From the NCBI GenBank assembly GCA_945873755.1, contig CAMCEM010000014.1, positions 1 to 34,565 on the forward strand: 34,565 bases of DNA, given 5' to 3'. The DNA is from Chitinophaga pinensis. Its GTDB lineage: Bacteria; Bacteroidota; Bacteroidia; UKL13-3. The position numbers and the translations under genes are program-made. Of the stretch, positions 25,616 to 34,392 are shown piece by piece (positions within the stretch are counted from its first letter, which is position 1; the number at the start of each line of letters is the position of its first letter). Below the pieces are notes generated by a model. That model ran no database searches. It was not told the origin of the DNA and saw nothing but the letters and a program-made list of their open reading frames with translations.

Positions 25616-25828
25616 CGTTTAAAGTTTTATAAGAATAATTTAATTTTTAAATTAAACTTAAATTAAATTTTACGTATTTATATTTAATTAATATTAAAAA
25701 TAAATTTTCATTATTTATTTATTTTAAAAGTTTAAATAAATTTTTTTTAATATATTTAATAAATCCAATGTATTTAATATATTGTATATTCAATTATAGA
25801 AATTAAATGCCTATAATACAATAAACTA
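25616..25828. other. Very AT-rich divergent intergenic region
   Basis: The 359 bases between the pterin synthase gene and the sigma factor gene (25573-25931) hold no gene I can support. This middle part has very few G or C bases. TTTAATATATT occurs twice as a direct repeat, at 25746-25756 and 25773-25783, 27 bases apart. That could be a pair of operator half-sites or just low complexity. Confidence 0.4.
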
Positions 25829-25836: not shown

Positions 25837-25931
25837 TTTAACTTATTTTGATATTTATTAAACAAAACATTTGTTTATTCCAAAAATAATGTGGAATCTT
25901 GTTGAACAAAATTATTAAAAAGTTAAACAAC

Positions 25932-27016: not shown

Positions 27017-30000
27017 ATGCTTAATAGTATTATTTCAATTTCTGTAAAACAGAAATTGATCATAGGGCTTTTTACAATTGCCTTAATTGGTTATGGTAGT
27101 TACCAATTTACTAAACTGCCAATAGATGCAGTTCCAGATATAACAAATAATCAAGTACAAATTATTACTGCAGTTCCTTCGCTTGGTGCTGCTGATATAG
27201 AACGTTTAATTACTTTTCCAATTGAACAAGCAAATAGCAATATACCCGGTATTATTGAGTTAAGGAGTTTTTCTCGTTTTGGATTATCGTTGGTTACTAT
27301 TGTTTTTAACGATGAAACAGATGTTTATTGGGCTCGGCAACAAGTTAGTGAACGTTTACAATTAGTAAAAGATGAATTACCAAAAGGAATAGGCAGTCCT
27401 ACTTTGGCGCCAGTTACCACTGGGCTTGGCGAAATTTATCAATATACTGTGACTGCAAAAAAAGGATTTGAAAATAAGTTTGATTTAACTGAACTTAGAA
27501 CAATTCAAGACTGGGTAGTTAGGAGACAATTACTTTCCGTAAAAGGTGTTGCCGATGTTAGTAGTTTTGGAGGTAAATTAAAACAATATGAAATTGCAAT
27601 AAACCCAACTAAATTACAATCATATAATTTATCAATTGCCGATGTTTTTAATGCATTGGAAAGTAACAACCAAAATACTGGCGGTGCATATATCGAAAAA
27701 CAATCAACAGTTTTATCAATAAGAAGTGAAGGTTTAATAGGATCTATTGCTGATATTCAAAATATTTCTATAAAAAATTTAGTAAATGGAAGTCCACTAT
27801 TTATTAAAGATGTGGCAGAGGTAAAAATTGGTTTTGCAACAAGATATGGGGCTGTAACTTTTGATGGAAAAGGTGAAGTTGCAGGTGCGGTAGTAATGAT
27901 GCTAAAAGGAGCAAACAGTAGCGATGTTATTAAGAATGTAAAGCAACGAATAGAGTTAATTAAAGAAACTTTACCTGAAGGAGTAGAAATTGAACCATTT
28001 TTAGACAGAACTAAAATGGTAAATAATGCCATTGGCACAGTTGAAAAAAATTTAATTGAAGGAGCTTTGATAGTTGTTTTTGTTTTGGTGCTTTTTCTTG
28101 GAAATTTTAGAGCAGGTTTAATAGTAGCTTCTGTTATTCCTTTATCCATGTTGTTTGCAGTTATTTTAATGAACATGTTTGGAGTTGGAGGAAATTTAAT
28201 GAGTTTAGGGGCATTAGATTTTGGATTAATTGTAGACGGTGCAGTAATTATTGTGGAAGCAGTAATGCATGTGCTTATTTCAAACAATAGGCAATTGGCA
28301 ATTGGCAATAAGGCAACAGAAAGTAATGAACTAATTCAACCTAATAATAATAACCATGCTAGCAGCCAGTTGCCAGCAGCCAGCCGCCAATACACTCAAA
28401 ACGAAATGGATAAACAGGTAACTAGTTCTGCAAGTAAAATGATGAACAGTGCAGTTTTTGGTCAAATAATAATATTAGTGGTTTACTTACCTATTTTTAC
28501 TTTACAAGGCATTGAAGGAAAAATGTTTAAACCAATGGCTCAAACTGTTGCTTTTGCTTTGTTAGGTGCTTTTGTTCTTTCACTAACTTATATACCTATG
28601 ATGAGTGCATTGTTTTTGAAAAAAAAATTAAGTACAAATAAAAATTTCTCAACGCGAATGATGGATTTTTTAGAACATCATTACAAAAATTTATTAAGCA
28701 AAGTATTAAATTATAAAAAAATTGTTATTGGTTTAACAATTATACTTTTTACAGTGTCAATTTATATTTTAACAAGTTTAGGAGGTGAATTCATACCGGC
28801 TTTAGAAGAAGGTGATTTTGCTGTAGAAACTAGAGTTCTATCTGGCAGCAATTTAAATGTTACAATTCAATCAACTACTAAAGGTGAAAAGATATTAAAG
28901 GCTAAATTCCCAGAAGTAATAAAAGTAGTAAGTAAAATTGGTAGTGGCGAGGTACCTACTGATCCTATGCCAATTGATGCAGCTGATATGATGATTATTT
29001 TAAAAGATAAAAGTGAATGGACTTCGGCAAAAACTTTTGATGAATTAGCCGAAAAAATGACTAAAGAATTAGAAGCAATTCCAGGAGTAACTTTTGGATT
29101 TCAATATCCAGTTCAAATGCGATTTAATGAGTTAATGACAGGCGCAAAACAAGAAGTAGTATGTAAAATATTTGGCGAAAATTTGGACACATTAGCATTT
29201 TATGCTGCTAAGCTAGGACAATTAATAAATAGTGTAGATGGGGCTGTAGATTTATACGTGGAACCCGTTGCAGGAATGCCGCAAATAGTAATTAACTATA
29301 ATAGCGCTTCTATGGCTCAATATGGATTGAAAATTAGCGATGTAAATAAAATAGTAAACACAGCTTTTGCTGGCCAAAGCACTGGTAAAGTTTATGAAGG
29401 GGAAAAACGTTTCGACTTAATTGTTAGATTAGATAATGATCAAAGAAATGACATTTCGGACGTTCAAAATTTATTAATTCCTACTGAAAATGGCACACAA
29501 ATACCTTTAAGTCAAGTAGCCGATGTGCAAATAAAAGAGGGGCCAAATCAAATACAACGCGAAGATACAAAACGAAGAATTATAATAGGCTTTAACGTTC
29601 GTAATAGAGATGTGCAAAGTATTGTAAATGAATTACAAGAAAAAGTAGAAGCACAGATAAATTTTCCAGCTACTTATTACGTAACTTATGGAGGATCGTT
29701 CGAAAATTTAATAGCGGCAAAAAAACGATTAAGCATTGCAGTTCCAGTTTCGCTATTACTAATATTATTGTTGTTATACTTTGCTTTCGGTTCATTGAAA
29801 CATAGTTTATTAATTTATTCTGCCATACCACTTTCGGCTATTGGAGGTATTTTTGCTTTAGCTTTGCGTGGATTGCCTTTTAGTATAAGTGCAGGTGTAG
29901 GTTTTATTGCTTTGTTTGGTGTTGCAGTACTAAATGGAATTGTGCTAATAGCTGAGTTTAATAGATTAAAAAAAGAAGGCATGACCGATTTAAAAGATAT

Positions 30001-30250
30001 AGTTTTAAAAGGAACAAAGATGCGTTTGCGCCCAGTATTAATGACAGCTTTAGTAGCTTCGCTAGGATTTTTCCCTATGGCATTAAGCAACGGTGCTGGA
30101 GCAGAAGTTCAACGCCCACTTGCCACTGTAGTTATTGGGGGTTTATTAGTAGCTACTTTCCTTACACTTTTCGTGCTTCCAATGTTGTATATACTTTTTG
30201 AAAAAGGCGTTTTATCCCGCAGATTTCGCAGAAAATCGCAGATTAATTAG
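27017..30250 (+). CDS. czcA: Heavy-metal efflux RND transporter (CusA/CzcA family)
   Basis: The proton-driven inner membrane pump of a tripartite metal exporter. The 1077 residues have the HME-RND plan: TM1, a large periplasmic loop (about 35-335), TM2-6 with LGALDFGLIVDGAVIIVEAV (TM4, intramembrane acids), PIFTLQGIEGKMF, a second periplasmic loop (about 590-870) and TM8-12 (GVAVLNGIVLIAEFNR, FFPMALSNGAGAEVQRPLATVV). Two parts look foreign. Residues about 423-459, in the cytoplasmic TM4-TM5 loop, are encoded by repeat-like DNA. The last dozen residues (SRRFRRKSQIN) are encoded by the inverted repeat at 30216-30243. Both keep the frame. Which metal it exports cannot be read from the sequence. 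Confidence 0.93.
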   Translation: MLNSIISISVKQKLIIGLFTIALIGYGSYQFTKLPIDAVPDITNNQVQIITAVPSLGAADIERLITFPIEQANSNIPGIIELRSFSRFGLSLVTIVFNDETDVYWARQQVSERLQLVKDELPKGIGSPTLAPVTTGLGEIYQYTVTAKKGFENKFDLTELRTIQDWVVRRQLLSVKGVADVSSFGGKLKQYEIAINPTKLQSYNLSIADVFNALESNNQNTGGAYIEKQSTVLSIRSEGLIGSIADIQNISIKNLVNGSPLFIKDVAEVKIGFATRYGAVTFDGKGEVAGAVVMMLKGANSSDVIKNVKQRIELIKETLPEGVEIEPFLDRTKMVNNAIGTVEKNLIEGALIVVFVLVLFLGNFRAGLIVASVIPLSMLFAVILMNMFGVGGNLMSLGALDFGLIVDGAVIIVEAVMHVLISNNRQLAIGNKATESNELIQPNNNNHASSQLPAASRQYTQNEMDKQVTSSASKMMNSAVFGQIIILVVYLPIFTLQGIEGKMFKPMAQTVAFALLGAFVLSLTYIPMMSALFLKKKLSTNKNFSTRMMDFLEHHYKNLLSKVLNYKKIVIGLTIILFTVSIYILTSLGGEFIPALEEGDFAVETRVLSGSNLNVTIQSTTKGEKILKAKFPEVIKVVSKIGSGEVPTDPMPIDAADMMIILKDKSEWTSAKTFDELAEKMTKELEAIPGVTFGFQYPVQMRFNELMTGAKQEVVCKIFGENLDTLAFYAAKLGQLINSVDGAVDLYVEPVAGMPQIVINYNSASMAQYGLKISDVNKIVNTAFAGQSTGKVYEGEKRFDLIVRLDNDQRNDISDVQNLLIPTENGTQIPLSQVADVQIKEGPNQIQREDTKRRIIIGFNVRNRDVQSIVNELQEKVEAQINFPATYYVTYGGSFENLIAAKKRLSIAVPVSLLLILLLLYFAFGSLKHSLLIYSAIPLSAIGGIFALALRGLPFSISAGVGFIALFGVAVLNGIVLIAEFNRLKKEGMTDLKDIVLKGTKMRLRPVLMTALVASLGFFPMALSNGAGAEVQRPLATVVIGGLLVATFLTLFVLPMLYILFEKGVLSRRFRRKSQIN
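28285..28394. repeat. In-frame insertion of repeat-like DNA within the RND pump gene
   Basis: GGCAATTGGCAATTGGCAAT (28290-28309) is a 7-base unit repeated almost three times. AGCAGCCAGTTGCCAGCAGC and its continuation (28361-28390) are a second, GC-richer repetitive stretch. Between them lies an Asn-rich coding tract. The words resemble those in the mosaic spacers at 18807-18960 and 33074-33258. The segment codes for the cytoplasmic TM4-TM5 loop, which from memory is shorter in related pumps. Confidence 0.55.
30216..30243 (-). repeat. Left copy of the 28-base CTGCG repeat (inverted)
   Basis: On the minus strand it reads ATCTGCGATTTTC followed by TGCGAAATCTGCGGG. It matches the copy at 30708-30735 in 24 of 28 positions, in opposite orientation. 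It forms the last coding bases of the RND pump, ending 5 bases before the end of its stop codon. Confidence 0.85.
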
Positions 30251-30283
30251 TTTATTATTTATACAATTAATTTATAATTTAAA

Positions 30284-30661
30284 ATGACAGAAAATGATGT
30301 TTCATATAAAATAAGAAATGCAATTTTTAAAGTATATAATGTGCTAGGTCCTGGTTTGTTTGAAAGTGTTTATGAATCTGCACTAATTTACCAATTAAAG
30401 AAGGATGGACTTAAAGCAATTGCTCAAGTTGAGGTTCCTGTTTATTACGATGAACAAAAATTAGAAATAGGATTTAGAATTGATATTTTAGTAGAAGATT
30501 TAGTAATAATTGAAATTAAATCAGTAGAAGAAATTTCAAAAGTTCATCATAAACAGTTATTAACTTATTTGAAGTTAACAGAAATAAGGTTAGGTCTTTT
30601 GGTAAATTTCAACACCGATAATATTTCGGAATCAATAATTAGAAAGGTAAATGGTTTATGA
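30284..30661 (+). CDS. GxxExxY protein, PD-(D/E)XK nuclease-like
   Basis: A 125-residue member of the GxxExxY family (named for GLFESVY: Gly24, Glu27, Tyr30). It carries the core of a PD-(D/E)XK nuclease: Asp67 in RIDILV, Glu77 and Lys79 in VIIEIKS, and the downstream QxxxY motif (Gln91, Tyr95 in KQLLTYLK) seen in RecB-like nucleases. The family's function is not established. It is placed between the RND pump and its outer membrane channel, where such operons normally have nothing, and a 28-base inverted repeat bounds it. Its TGA overlaps the next gene's ATG (ATGA), so the TolC-type gene may depend on its translation. Confidence 0.9.
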   Translation: MTENDVSYKIRNAIFKVYNVLGPGLFESVYESALIYQLKKDGLKAIAQVEVPVYYDEQKLEIGFRIDILVEDLVIIEIKSVEEISKVHHKQLLTYLKLTEIRLGLLVNFNTDNISESIIRKVNGL

Positions 30662-32079
30662 TAAAAATATTTAATATTAAGAAAGCAAATCAAGAATCTA
30701 TAAATGTCTCTGCGATAATCAGCGAAATCTGCGGGCAACTATTCAATTGTCGCAGACAATCATTCAATAAATTCATTTACAAAGCAACAAGAATATCTGC
30801 GCTAATCAGCGGAAACTGCTGGCTAGTATTCTATTGTCGAAGACAATCATTCAGTAAATTCGTTTATAAAGCAATAACATTATCTGCGTTTTTCTGCGTT
30901 ATCTGCGGGCAAACCTTTGCACAAAAAATCAGTTTACAAGCAGCAATAGACTCAGCTTTGATTAACAATCTTAATGTAAAAAACGAAAAGCTAAAAGCTG
31001 ATTACCAGAAAAAGTTAATTCAAACGGGTGTTAATTTGCCACAAACCATGATAAATGGTGAATACGGACAAATAAATAGTGTTTATAATGATAACAGATT
31101 TGGTATTGCGCAAAGTCTTCAATTTCCAACAGTTTATGTGCATCAGAAAAATGCCTTAAAAGCACAATGGCAAAAAAGTTTAACCAATGTAGTTTTAAAA
31201 GAAACTGAACTAAAAAAACAAGTTAGACAAACATTTTTTCAATATTTGTTTTTAATTCAAAAAAAACAATTGCTGCAAAGCAACGATAGTTTATATGCTG
31301 AATTTTTAAATAAATCGAATAGCAGGTTTAAAGCGGGTGAAAGTAATGTGCTAGAACTTGCAACTGCCGAAAATCAAAGGACACAAATCAGCATTCAGTT
31401 AAACCAATTGAATACCGAATTAGAGTTAGTTTTGATGCAATTTCAGTTGTTGTTGAATTCAAAAATCATACTGATTCCAACAGGAAATAATTTTAAAATA
31501 AACGATGATTTAAAAATAGATAGCAGCGAAATTTTAAATCACCCAACTGTCAAATTGTTACTACTGCAAAAGCAAATTGCACTACTAAATAAAAAGGTAG
31601 AAAAATCACGATTACTTCCTGATTTAACTCTATCTTACAACAATATGACTATGCAAGGAATTGGAGCAGATGATGTAAACTATAATACTTCAAAACGATT
31701 TCAGTCGGCTCAAATTGGCTTAGGAATTCCTTTGTTTTTTGGAGCAAACAAAGCCCAAATTGGGGTTTCAAAAATTGATGTTTTAATAAATGAAAATAGA
31801 CTTCAAAATGAAATTAATTTAATGAAAAATGAATGGAACAAAGCCAAGTATCAATATCAATTAAATATTAAAACAATTAAATTATTTGAAAGTAAAACTT
31901 TAAACAATGCCCAAATAATTATTGAAACAGCTAACAAACAATTTGCCAATGGAGATATTAATTATATCGAATGGGTGATGCTAATCAATCAAGCAATTTC
32001 TATAAAAAATGAATACTTAAATGGTGTTTATAATTTAAATGAAAGTATCATTCAATTGAATTATTTAAGCAATAAGTAA
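30658..32079 (+). CDS. TolC/CusC-type outer membrane efflux protein with repeat-encoded N-terminus
   Basis: The outer membrane channel for the metal exporter. From about residue 90 (KISLQAAIDSALINNLNVKN) it is a normal OEP protein with two long coiled-coil repeats (LRQ-type TELKKQVRQTFFQYLFLIQKK, NRLQNEINLMKNEWNKAKYQ), ending NESIIQLNYLSNK. The 89 residues before it are unusual: three copies of a 29-residue unit (Ser18, Ser47 and Ser76 start them), encoded by DNA with an exact 87-base period. The third copy, SAFFCVICGQTFAQ, is the only segment that can serve as the signal peptide. ATG 30658 is the only start codon in frame before it and overlaps the previous stop. The true processing is uncertain. 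Confidence 0.85.
   Translation: MIKIFNIKKANQESINVSAIISEICGQLFNCRRQSFNKFIYKATRISALISGNCWLVFYCRRQSFSKFVYKAITLSAFFCVICGQTFAQKISLQAAIDSALINNLNVKNEKLKADYQKKLIQTGVNLPQTMINGEYGQINSVYNDNRFGIAQSLQFPTVYVHQKNALKAQWQKSLTNVVLKETELKKQVRQTFFQYLFLIQKKQLLQSNDSLYAEFLNKSNSRFKAGESNVLELATAENQRTQISIQLNQLNTELELVLMQFQLLLNSKIILIPTGNNFKINDDLKIDSSEILNHPTVKLLLLQKQIALLNKKVEKSRLLPDLTLSYNNMTMQGIGADDVNYNTSKRFQSAQIGLGIPLFFGANKAQIGVSKIDVLINENRLQNEINLMKNEWNKAKYQYQLNIKTIKLFESKTLNNAQIIIETANKQFANGDINYIEWVMLINQAISIKNEYLNGVYNLNESIIQLNYLSNK
30708..30909 (+). repeat. Tandem 87-base (29-codon) repeat, two full and one partial copy
   Basis: Copies of the 28-base motif start at 30708, 30795 and 30882, exactly 87 bases apart. The first two match in 23 of 28 positions. 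Each of the first two units also holds a palindrome, ATTGTC-GCA-GACAAT at 30746-30760 and ATTGTC-GAA-GACAAT at 30833-30847, again 87 apart. The motif orientation is opposite to the copy at 30216-30243. Confidence 0.9.
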
Positions 32080-32080
32080 T

Positions 32081-33073
32081 ATGCAAAAACAAAAGGTAAA
32101 TACCATTCAAATGCAGCAAATATTAGTAGCGGTTTCCGTTATTTTATTTGTAATGAAAATGATAGCTTGGATGCTCACTTCATCGGTAGCTATTTTAACA
32201 GATGCACTAGAAAGTACTGTGAATGTAATTGCAGGCTTTATAGGTTTGTACAGCATTATTTTATCATCGAAACCAAAAGATAAAGAGCATCCATATGGAC
32301 ATGGAAAAGTTGAATTTATTTCATCGGCTTTCGAAGGTTTGTTAATCAGTTTTGCTGGACTAATTATTATATATGAAGCCATTAATAATTTTATTCACCC
32401 GCATGAATTAAAGCAATTAGATTATGGTTTGATTTTGATAGCCATTACATCGGCTGTAAATTATTTTGTAGGTCATTTATGTGTTACAAAAGGTAAAAAA
32501 GAAAACTCGCCAATATTAATTGCTAGTGGCACGCATTTAAAATCAGATACCTATTCAACCCTTGGATTATTAGTTGGTTTGGGTTTAATTATGATTACAG
32601 GATATGCATGGATTGATAGTTTAACAGCTATTATTTTTGCTTTTGTAATTATTTATACTGGCTACAAAATTATTCGCAAATCGCTTTCAGGTATGATGGA
32701 TGAAACCGATGAAGAAATTATTGCTGATATTGTAAAAGTACTGAACGAAAACAGGAAAAATGATTGCATTGATGTTCATAATATGCGTGTAATAAATTAT
32801 GCTGGAAATTATCACATCGACTGTCATTTAACGGTACCGTTTTTTATAAACGTAAATGAAGCACACAATATTTTAGATACTTTAACCGATTTACTTAAAA
32901 AACATTTTGACGACAGAGTTGAATTTTTTATCCATGTTGATGGCTGTCTATTTACCCAATGTACTATATGCAATGTTCAAAATTGCGAAGTTAGAAAAGA
33001 AAAATTTGTTCATAAAATCGAATGGACACAAGAAAACATTTTATCAAATAAAAAACACATTTTAGAACAATGA
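32081..33073 (+). CDS. Cation diffusion facilitator with a cysteine-rich C-terminus
   Basis: A proton-coupled metal exporter of the CDF family, moving divalent metal from cytosol to periplasm, where the RND complex could take over. The 330 residues have six helices (about 12-32, 46-62, 84-101, 114-132, 158-175, 180-197) and a cytosolic ferredoxin-like domain. Metal-site residues are His152 and Asp156 (HLKSDT) in TM5. TM2 has Asp41 in TDALEST but lacks the second Asp four residues on, as in one CDF subgroup. The C-terminal tail adds CLFTQCTICNVQNC, four cysteines suited to metal binding. It starts 1 base after the TolC-type gene's stop, and its own stop overlaps an ATG (33070). Confidence 0.92.
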   Translation: MQKQKVNTIQMQQILVAVSVILFVMKMIAWMLTSSVAILTDALESTVNVIAGFIGLYSIILSSKPKDKEHPYGHGKVEFISSAFEGLLISFAGLIIIYEAINNFIHPHELKQLDYGLILIAITSAVNYFVGHLCVTKGKKENSPILIASGTHLKSDTYSTLGLLVGLGLIMITGYAWIDSLTAIIFAFVIIYTGYKIIRKSLSGMMDETDEEIIADIVKVLNENRKNDCIDVHNMRVINYAGNYHIDCHLTVPFFINVNEAHNILDTLTDLLKKHFDDRVEFFIHVDGCLFTQCTICNVQNCEVRKEKFVHKIEWTQENILSNKKHILEQ

Positions 33074-33258
33074 AAAATCAGCATCTAGCAACTAGCTTCT
33101 GGCCACTAGCAAAAAACAATAAGCTCCCGATAAGTCGGGTTGTCATCCTGAGCGGAGTCGAAGGAGGCAATAAACAATATGCAATAAGTAATGAGCAATT
33201 CGTTAATGAACGTCATTGCGAGCGAAGTGTGGCAATCTCAAGTCAATCAAATACAATC
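33074..33258. repeat. Mosaic of interspersed repeats upstream of the fusion-protein gene
   Basis: Pieces in order: CTAGCAACTAGCTTCTGGCC and flanks (33085-33111); the small palindrome CCCGA-TAAG-TCGGG (33126-33139); TCATCCTGAGCGGAGTCGAA (from 33143), a word I know as a common Bacteroidota interspersed repeat; GCAATA/GCAATT words (33167-33200); and GTCATTGCGAGCGAAGTGTG with GCAATCTC after it (33212-33239), another widespread repeat. The stretch is open in the frame of the next gene from ATG 33070, but the encoded words (VILSGVEGG, RHCERSVAIS) are simply repeat translations. Confidence 0.75.
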
Positions 33259-34392
33259 ATGCAAAAAATAAAAACCATTTTATTATTTGTAGTATCAACT
33301 TTTATTGTTGCCTGCGGCAATGATAAAACAGAAAAAAAAACTGCGGAAACAGCTAATCCTGCAATGGTAAGTTTAACCAATGAGCAACTAACTAATGCCA
33401 ATGTGGTGTTAGGAAAATTTGAGCAAAAAAGCATATCAAGTATTTTAAAAGTAAATGGAAAAATAGATGTTCCACCACAAAACATGGTATCGGTAAGTGT
33501 GCCTTTGGGTGGTTATTTAAAATCGACCAAACTATTACCAGGCATGCATGTAAGCAAAGGAGAGGTGATTGCAGTAATGGAAGACCAACAGTACATTCAA
33601 TTGCAACAAGATTATTTATTGGCCAAAGCCAAACTAAATTTTATTCAAAGTGAATACAACCGACAAAAAGAACTAAACCAAAGCAAAGCCAGTAGCGATA
33701 AGATTTTTCAACAAACCGAATCAGAGTTTATTTCTCAAAAAATTACTTTAAAATCATTGGCAGAAAAGTTAAAATTAATTGGCCTTAATCCTGAAACAGT
33801 GAATGAAAATACAATTTCAAAAAGTATCAATATTTATTCGCCCATTAACGGATATGTTACCATGGTTAACGTAAACATTGGCAAATACTCACAACCAAGC
33901 GAGGTATTATTTGAACTAGTAAATCCCACGGATATTCACTTGGCATTAACTATTTTTGAAAAGGATTTGGCTCAAATAGAAATTGGACAAAAATTGGTGG
34001 CTTATACCAACAATAAACCTAATGAAAAACATCCATGTGAGATTATTTTGGTGGGTCATTCGGTATCAAAAGATAGGATTACAGAAGTGCATTGCCACTT
34101 TTTAGATTACGACAGAACCTTGCTTCCGGGCATGTATATGAATGCCGAAATTGAACTAAAAAACAACAAAGTAAATTCACTTCCTGTTGATGCCATTGTT
34201 AAGTTTGAAGGCAATCAATATGTGTTTGTAGCTATTGATAAAAACAATTTTGAAATGATACCAGTAACTGTTGGTGCAACTGAAAATGGTTATATTGAAA
34301 TAGTAAATGCCAAAGATTTTGATAACAAAAAAATTGTAACACAAGGTACATATAACTTACTAATGAAAAGCAAGAACAAAGCGGAGGAATAA
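33259..34392 (+). CDS. Periplasmic membrane-fusion lipoprotein (CusB/CzcB/HlyD family)
   Basis: The adaptor that links the RND pump to the outer membrane channel. The frame is open from 33070, but the first 63 residues are repeat-derived; ATG 33259 gives a proper lipoprotein signal, MQKIKTILLFVVSTFIVAC, with Cys19. The 377-residue product has a beta-barrel strand (VLKVNGKIDVPPQNMVSVSV), a lipoyl half-motif (GGYLKSTKLLPGMHVSKGEVIAVMED), a coiled-coil hairpin (about 110-180), the second lipoyl half (IYSPINGYVTMVNVNIGKYS) and a terminal domain (LPVDAIVKFEGNQYVFVAI). No His/Met-rich metal-binding N-terminus is seen. It closes the operon. Confidence 0.9.
   Translation: MQKIKTILLFVVSTFIVACGNDKTEKKTAETANPAMVSLTNEQLTNANVVLGKFEQKSISSILKVNGKIDVPPQNMVSVSVPLGGYLKSTKLLPGMHVSKGEVIAVMEDQQYIQLQQDYLLAKAKLNFIQSEYNRQKELNQSKASSDKIFQQTESEFISQKITLKSLAEKLKLIGLNPETVNENTISKSINIYSPINGYVTMVNVNIGKYSQPSEVLFELVNPTDIHLALTIFEKDLAQIEIGQKLVAYTNNKPNEKHPCEIILVGHSVSKDRITEVHCHFLDYDRTLLPGMYMNAEIELKNNKVNSLPVDAIVKFEGNQYVFVAIDKNNFEMIPVTVGATENGYIEIVNAKDFDNKKIVTQGTYNLLMKSKNKAEE

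Follow-up and report, generated by a model that had tools for sequence, protein, structure and literature searches.

The window analysed here, a stretch of 34,565 nucleotides, is part of a draft Bacteroidota MAG (genome G000, contig C14) from a freshwater lineage, and the genome-wide statistics given below are based on searches. HMM matches give an operon in the order cusA, a GxxExxY gene, a cusC-like OEP gene, a CDF transporter gene and cusB (Table 1), the CDF cation efflux gene sitting between cusC and cusB. An AT-rich tandem repeat with a period of 36/23 (25660-25764) lies upstream of an ECF sigma factor gene at 25899. The cusC-like ORF matches PF02321 over two stretches, which meets membership of the OEP/TolC superfamily, and it stays below the cut-off of the type I secretion family TIGR01844 (36 bits, cut-off 225), to which it is thus not assigned. 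The GxxExxY protein is well above the curated cut-offs of both of its families (TIGR04256, 140 versus 35 bits; PF13366, 138 versus 22 bits) and carries GLFESVY and RID...EIK motifs, from which, in the absence of anything but sequence, nuclease activity can at most be inferred.

Table 1. Features of the cus operon and of the element at the cusA-cusC junction
Feature	Position	Strand	Evidence or remark
cusA, CusA/CzcA heavy-metal RND permease, 1077 aa	27017..30250	+	TIGR00914 1159 bits; PF00873
cusA tail SRRFRRKSQIN and stop (last ~12 codons)	within 27017..30250	+	encoded by the left arm of the putative element
Left terminal inverted repeat arm CCCGCAGATTTCGCAGAAAATCGCAGAT	30216..30243	.	28 nt, 89% complementary to 30882-30909; shuffled control
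GxxExxY gene, PD-(D/E)XK-like, 125 aa, carried by the element	30284..30661	+	TIGR04256; PF13366
ATGA, GxxExxY stop overlapping the cusC start codon	30658..30661	+	identical overlap in G001
cusC-like outer-membrane channel ORF, OEP/TolC superfamily, 473 aa	30658..32079	+	PF02321 110 bits
Repeat copy 1, 87 nt, degenerate hydrophobic segment SAIISEICGQ	30709..30795	+	repeat finding
Repeat copy 2, 87 nt, 84% to copy 1, degenerate hydrophobic segment SALISGNCW	30796..30882	+	
Partial repeat copy 3, encodes SAFFCVICGQ, then native-like TFAQK	30883..30927	+	
Right terminal inverted repeat arm ATCTGCGTTTTTCTGCGTTATCTGCGGG	30882..30909	.	inverted repeat and dispersed copies in genome
Inferred signal-peptide h-/c-region ITLSAFFCVICGQTFA followed by Q, residues 73-89, inferred cleavage after A88	30874..30924	+	hydropathy, orthologue comparison
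CDF cation efflux transporter, next operon gene	32081..33073	+	TIGR01297 208 bits
cusB periplasmic adaptor	33070..34392	+	TIGR01730 131 bits

The first-pass annotation of this DNA described three repeat copies at an exact 87-base period in the 5' end of the cusC-like ORF. This periodicity is borne out by a 44-nt core that recurs in the window at 30695, 30782 and 30869 (spacing 87 and 87), and Tandem Repeats Finder reports 2.1 copies of period 87 at 30709-30888 with a score of 262. The third copy is partial: only the portion encoding SAFFCVICGQ is present, and of the 45 nt compared it shares 26 with copy 1 and 24 with copy 2. Three copies of the unit are found in G000 and two in G001, an independent MAG of the same genus. 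In each 87-nt unit (30709-30882) the arm-like cores are separated by a stretch that includes a small palindrome, TTGTCGCAGACAA / TTGTCGAAGACAA.

The annotation had placed the export signal of the channel protein within the third copy, and hydropathy agrees, as the highest-scoring 11-residue window of the CusC N-terminus is ITLSAFFCVIC (residues 73-83, mean Kyte-Doolittle 2.54). It had also likened the corresponding segments of the other two copies to this signal; they are present but degenerate, reaching only about 1.6, and the only hydrophobic stretch that adjoins a cleavage-like site is the one in copy 3. Judged by its predicted translation, copy 3 alone, aided by adjacent spacer residues, gives a convincing hydrophobic core. 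Reading the window sequence from 30658 up to the hydrophobic segment shows no further in-frame ATG, GTG or TTG, which leaves 30658 as the sole in-frame start, as had been proposed. The 74-codon extension ahead of copy 3 is free of stops (base-shuffle P = 0.0015, the window being 30% GC), as is the shorter extension in G001 (base-shuffle P = 0.017), and the other two frames of the 74-codon extension contain 7 and 5 stops. A frameshift hiding a conventional start, which would have refuted the co-option of the repeat, is unlikely, as is an assembly artefact, since G001 has the same architecture with an intact frame.

The earlier annotation missed an inverted copy of the repeat in the terminal part of cusA; the two arms enclose the GxxExxY gene. 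The inverted repeat scores 19, compared with a maximum of 10 in 60 shuffles, and thus exceeds chance; the right-arm motif has 16 matches dispersed in the G000 genome versus 0 for the reversed pattern, satisfying the multiple-copy criterion for a MITE-like/TIR element, and the genome holds four GxxExxY genes. Chance as the origin of the repeat was rejected on the tandem repeat score, the dispersed copies and the shuffled controls. Because the inverted copy in the cusA end pairs with the right arm around the GxxExxY ORF, we count 30216 to 30909, as far as its sequence organization tells, as one element made up of an arm, an ORF and a second arm with internal tandem copies. The insertion of a tandem repeat inferred earlier is therefore right in that the repeat is real, and wrong in that the repeat belongs to a GxxExxY element, as its terminal arm, and is not a free tandem repeat. 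Residues 1-72 of CusC are a long n-region read from this element.

The arms of the element in both G000 and G001 are of the CGCAGA/TCTGCG type. Read inward, the left arm in the window gives the basic tail at the end of CusA, suited to the cytoplasmic side, and the right arm, read outward, gives SAFFCVICGQ. The outward strand is T-rich, and frames that are both open and hydrophobic make up 24% of outward frames and 2% of inward ones, compared with 17% and 5% for shuffled arms. The case for a coding bias specific to the base order of the arms is thus weak, as base composition explains most of the asymmetry.

In relatives without the insert, cusA and cusC form a single ORF of ~1450 aa with an ordinary internal signal peptide. 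An open frame longer than 1400 aa is present in 26/35 genomes (those with a best match at E < 1e-30), the partial ORF of G005 matches both ACR_tran and OEP, and the fused G005 protein has an internal signal-like segment after a short tail, ENFESKRMNKLDVKKVISTLLVISFFVFSSNVNAQ followed by NTITL. Within the genus of the window, two fused genomes (G005 and G006) lack the element, while all seven split genomes (7/7) have an element at the junction. A sequence like SAFFCVICGQTFAQ in repeat-free orthologues would have argued against the replacement of the ancestral signal; none is present, G005 having VISTLLVISFFVFSSNVNAQ and G006 TTLSIILVLVLSTYSQQSQAQ. The earlier inference that the repeat replaced the ancestral signal peptide and that its frame was co-opted is therefore supported, except that the ancestor was a CusA-CusC fusion with an internal signal and not a stand-alone gene. 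The repeat-derived signal cores (hydropathy 2.5-3.2) are as hydrophobic as the native fused cores (2.6-2.8), and the cleavage-like site likewise equals that of the native relatives. Fusions of CusA and CusC with an internal signal-peptide-like segment are common in the family and class (L007-L010, L012-L019, L021, L023-L030), and from these predicted segments signal-peptidase cleavage of a CusA-CusC polyprotein would be implied.

In G002, G003, G004, G007 and G009, of the same genus, the cusA/cusC junction holds an IVP element instead. Its ORF is of the 23S_rRNA_IVP four-helix type (PF05635, 105 bits versus a cut-off of 33.8 for the L003 ORF), and the cus-locus IVP ORFs exceed the TIGR02436 cut-off in five genomes. 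The repeats of this element, GCAATA/TTGCC (ATTGCC repeats), are read as the CusC signal peptide CLLLIANCQF(V/T)(F/N/L)AQ, giving CLLLIANCQFVFAQ / CLLLIANCQFTNAQ. Within clades the IVP genes are 91-100% identical at four-fold sites versus 61-82% for their flanks. The cus-junction IVP genes are far more alike than the flanking genes (L006 versus L011, L002-L004), suggesting recent exchange. At IVP/TIGR02436 loci of the genus (L306-L335), inverted repeats of short tandem units often flank the four-helix genes; these units vary between loci and match within a locus, an architecture like that of the GxxExxY elements.

The GxxExxY element of G001 occupies the same junction as that of G000, and the equivalent DNA is identical at 40/45 positions. 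The two GxxExxY genes are mutual closest relatives (tree support 1.0), with 97% amino acid identity and 83% identity at four-fold sites, compared with 52% for cusA and 55% for cusC, values like those of other between-clade comparisons. The G001 cusA is of the clade-B type almost throughout, whereas in its cusC the first nine diagnostic sites (about 27 nt) are of the clade-A type and are followed by a long unbroken clade-B run. To the left of the GxxExxY arm, G001 retains GCAATAAGCAAAGGGCAATAAGCAAT, an arm sequence of the IVP element. From the four-fold sites, the recombination tract and the leftover GCAATAAGCAAAGGGCAATAAGCAAT, it therefore appears most likely that a clade-A-like GxxExxY element took the place of an IVP element in G001 through recombination over a short tract. 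Simple vertical descent of both GxxExxY copies from a single origin is rejected by the four-fold sites and the tract. The G001 copy thus came laterally through a recombination tract; transposition is not shown, and there is no evidence of a target-site duplication, the flanks having diverged too far from the fused allele for an empty site to be defined.

The association extends beyond the cus operon. Inverted repeats scoring at least 4 above the shuffled maximum were found at 51/104 GxxExxY loci in Bacteroidota, and in an enlarged set 94/181 loci had an inverted repeat score of at least 13, a cut-off for which there was no shuffled control. An unrelated gene, for the secreted peptidase DPP-IV (PF00930), has a GxxExxY gene immediately upstream in several genera of the family, and the right arm is the predicted signal peptide, which GxxExxY elements supply in about a dozen related genomes. 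Three arm classes occur there (CTGTGCCTC, CTCTGCGCC and TTGCGCCTT), and each gives a signal peptide of its own (ILILCALCASAF, LILTLCLCASVV, LRLCAFAVLFL). At most loci the right arm pairs best with left arms of its own class; at L079 it pairs poorly even with its own, and for L240 the stretch compared was incomplete. DPP-IV orthologues without the element have ordinary signal peptides, and in G082 the DPP-IV signal persists although GxxExxY is a truncated pseudogene. At the 94 GxxExxY loci, 29 ORFs cross element arms, and those scored as signal-peptide-like, by a home-made hydropathy rule, are almost all DPP-IV and cusC; two such calls, L142 and L146, probably do not correspond to real genes, and L066 encodes an ordinary membrane protein with its hydrophobic part outside the arm.

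Most other copies of the repeat are intergenic. At the other sites inspected in the genus, the TCTGCG repeat is intergenic without read-through, and the right-arm motif is read through only at cusC, so that the repeat was rejected as a genome-wide signal-peptide cassette. GxxExxY elements also lie upstream of the cysteine desulfurase gene at SufS loci (L032, L233, L254, L256, L266), where a GTG inside the right arm would give a possible start, VKSVA.

Based on these comparisons, we propose that the linker of an ancestral cusA-cusC fusion, together with its internal signal peptide, gave way to a short element in which terminal inverted repeats flank a GxxExxY ORF. The left arm of this element, read inward, would supply CusA with a basic C-terminal tail and a stop codon; the element ORF would end in the ATGA that contains the CusC start codon, probably coupling cusC translation to that of the ORF; and the right arm, read outward, would form the hydrophobic core of the CusC signal peptide just before the conserved AQ cleavage site. 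Topology can be preserved by an element at this junction because the T-rich outward strand tends to be hydrophobic and the inward strand hydrophilic, so that the CusA tail would stay inside and CusC would be exported. In G000, the 87-nt unit behind the right arm was duplicated again.

We regard this explanation as a whole, an element-split fusion gene with the right arm as the putative CusC signal peptide, as highly probable. The sequences compared show the arms and the reading frames, the fused ancestor, lateral transfer of the element into G001 and its recurrence at other loci. Function of the segment as a cleaved Sec signal is inferred from hydropathy, the cleavage motif and homology only, and export in vivo is not shown. 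Translational coupling of cusC to the GxxExxY ORF is likewise inferred, as is movement of the element by a mechanism of its own, since mobility is not demonstrated and the transfer was by a recombination tract. Several points count against the whole: the n-region, with 72 residues, is unusually long, the score for the TIGR01844 TolC model falls short of the cut-off despite a clear Pfam OEP match, the sequence comes from a draft MAG, and a target-site duplication was neither found nor tested for, so that transposition itself is not shown.

Signal peptides are of low complexity and evolve fast, and the AQ cleavage site and the residues downstream of it look native, so the hydrophobic segment could in principle be the native CusC signal, with its resemblance to the repeat due to chance or convergence. 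We find this barely credible, given that the 28-nt arm pairs with its inverted copy at the cusA end and recurs across the genome, that native orthologues have unrelated signals, that nearly the same DNA in G001 has a lateral history, and that DPP-IV repeats the pattern with three arm classes. It is also very unlikely that the element simply broke the gene, leaving cusC as a decaying pseudogene or its product in the cytoplasm or anchored in the membrane. An N-terminus as long and odd as this one, in which two additional hydrophobic segments of lesser strength occur, would fit such a loss of export, and no experimental data are available; against it stand the intact OEP domain, 83% identical to clade-A orthologues, the stop-free extension in two lineages, and the hydrophobic core and cleavage motif retained in all seven split species.

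The remaining alternatives concern the order of events. Splitting does not always need an element, because the distant genomes G020 and G054, outside the genus, have cusA and cusC split without one, and an ordinary stop and restart might have separated the genes before elements entered the new intergenic gap. This order is improbable for the genus, in which every split genome has an element and both element-free genomes are fused, no element-free split is seen, and it is the arms that encode the tail of cusA as well as the start and signal of cusC. A single old insertion in the ancestor of the genus, followed by swapping of element types through recombination and the regain of a fused allele by G005, is a serious possibility, if not one that we would favour. 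Between the two clades, the IVP genes have diverged to the same degree as their flanks (42-44% identity at four-fold sites), G001 keeps IVP-type repeats left of the GxxExxY arm, and its element came by recombination, all of which fit; set against them are the loss needed in G005 and left boundaries that differ between the clades. This reading concerns history only and is compatible with the proposed replacement of the fusion linker by an element.

The closest precedent that we found is in Yersinia, where a YPAL/RU-2 MITE partly forms the predicted signal peptide of YPO1552 (Delihas, reviewed in PMC2229807). There, as here, a small inverted-repeat element gives an ORF part of its predicted signal peptide. 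However, YPO1552 is a hypothetical new protein of one genus, whereas the proteins here, an RND outer-membrane channel and DPP-IV, are conserved; moreover, the elements described here carry an ORF of their own and split a fusion gene, and element-free orthologues serve as controls for a pattern that recurs with different elements. Rickettsia palindromic elements are in-frame inserts in conserved genes (PMC2229807, PMC10969869) and similarly show repeat DNA tolerated inside conserved coding sequence by an open frame, but they add an internal peptide, while the element at the cus junction ends one protein, starts the next and supplies its export signal. Intervening sequences of 23S rRNA genes with an S23p/IVP ORF are known from Coxiella and Leptospira, and that of Coxiella has short tandem repeats before its ORF (PMC4990558). 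The junction element of the sister species resembles these in encoding a 23S_rRNA_IVP protein (PF05635) between repeats; unlike them, it lies in a protein-coding operon, and we have no evidence of RNA excision.

In the open-access literature, where coverage of GxxExxY mentions is incomplete, we found no description of GxxExxY mobility or function and no mention of PDDEXK_3; GxxExxY is named once each in two papers, one of which treats it as a neighbouring domain only. Searching for element-derived signal peptides in those words gave no direct match, the Yersinia case being found through MITE reviews, and nothing useful was found on RND-TolC fusions. The protein in the window is a clear HMM member of the GxxExxY/PDDEXK_3 family, which is linked here to inverted repeats at many loci. 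New in our results are the transition from a fused to a split gene, the provision of tail, start and signal by a single element, the repeated occurrence at cusC (two element types) and at DPP-IV (three arm classes), and the association of GxxExxY and IVP ORFs with inverted-repeat elements. More tentatively, as a reading that we consider less likely than not, we suggest that GxxExxY and IVP/four-helix ORFs may mark a class of small mobile elements whose arms (7-10 nt units; hydrophobic outward, hydrophilic and basic inward) allow insertion within or next to reading frames, because they end the upstream protein and give the downstream one a coupled start and a working signal, so that the host gene would come to depend on the element end.

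Overall, the cus junction offers a natural, well-controlled case of a repeat-flanked element whose end turned into the putative export signal of a conserved protein, repeatedly and with different element types. It illustrates how a single step can create both a new signal peptide and a new gene boundary, and it accounts for odd N-termini in Bacteroidota annotation. The case also indicates that a CusA-CusC fusion with an internal signal peptide is the usual state in the group, and it ties two uncharacterised families, GxxExxY and IVP, to inverted-repeat elements.
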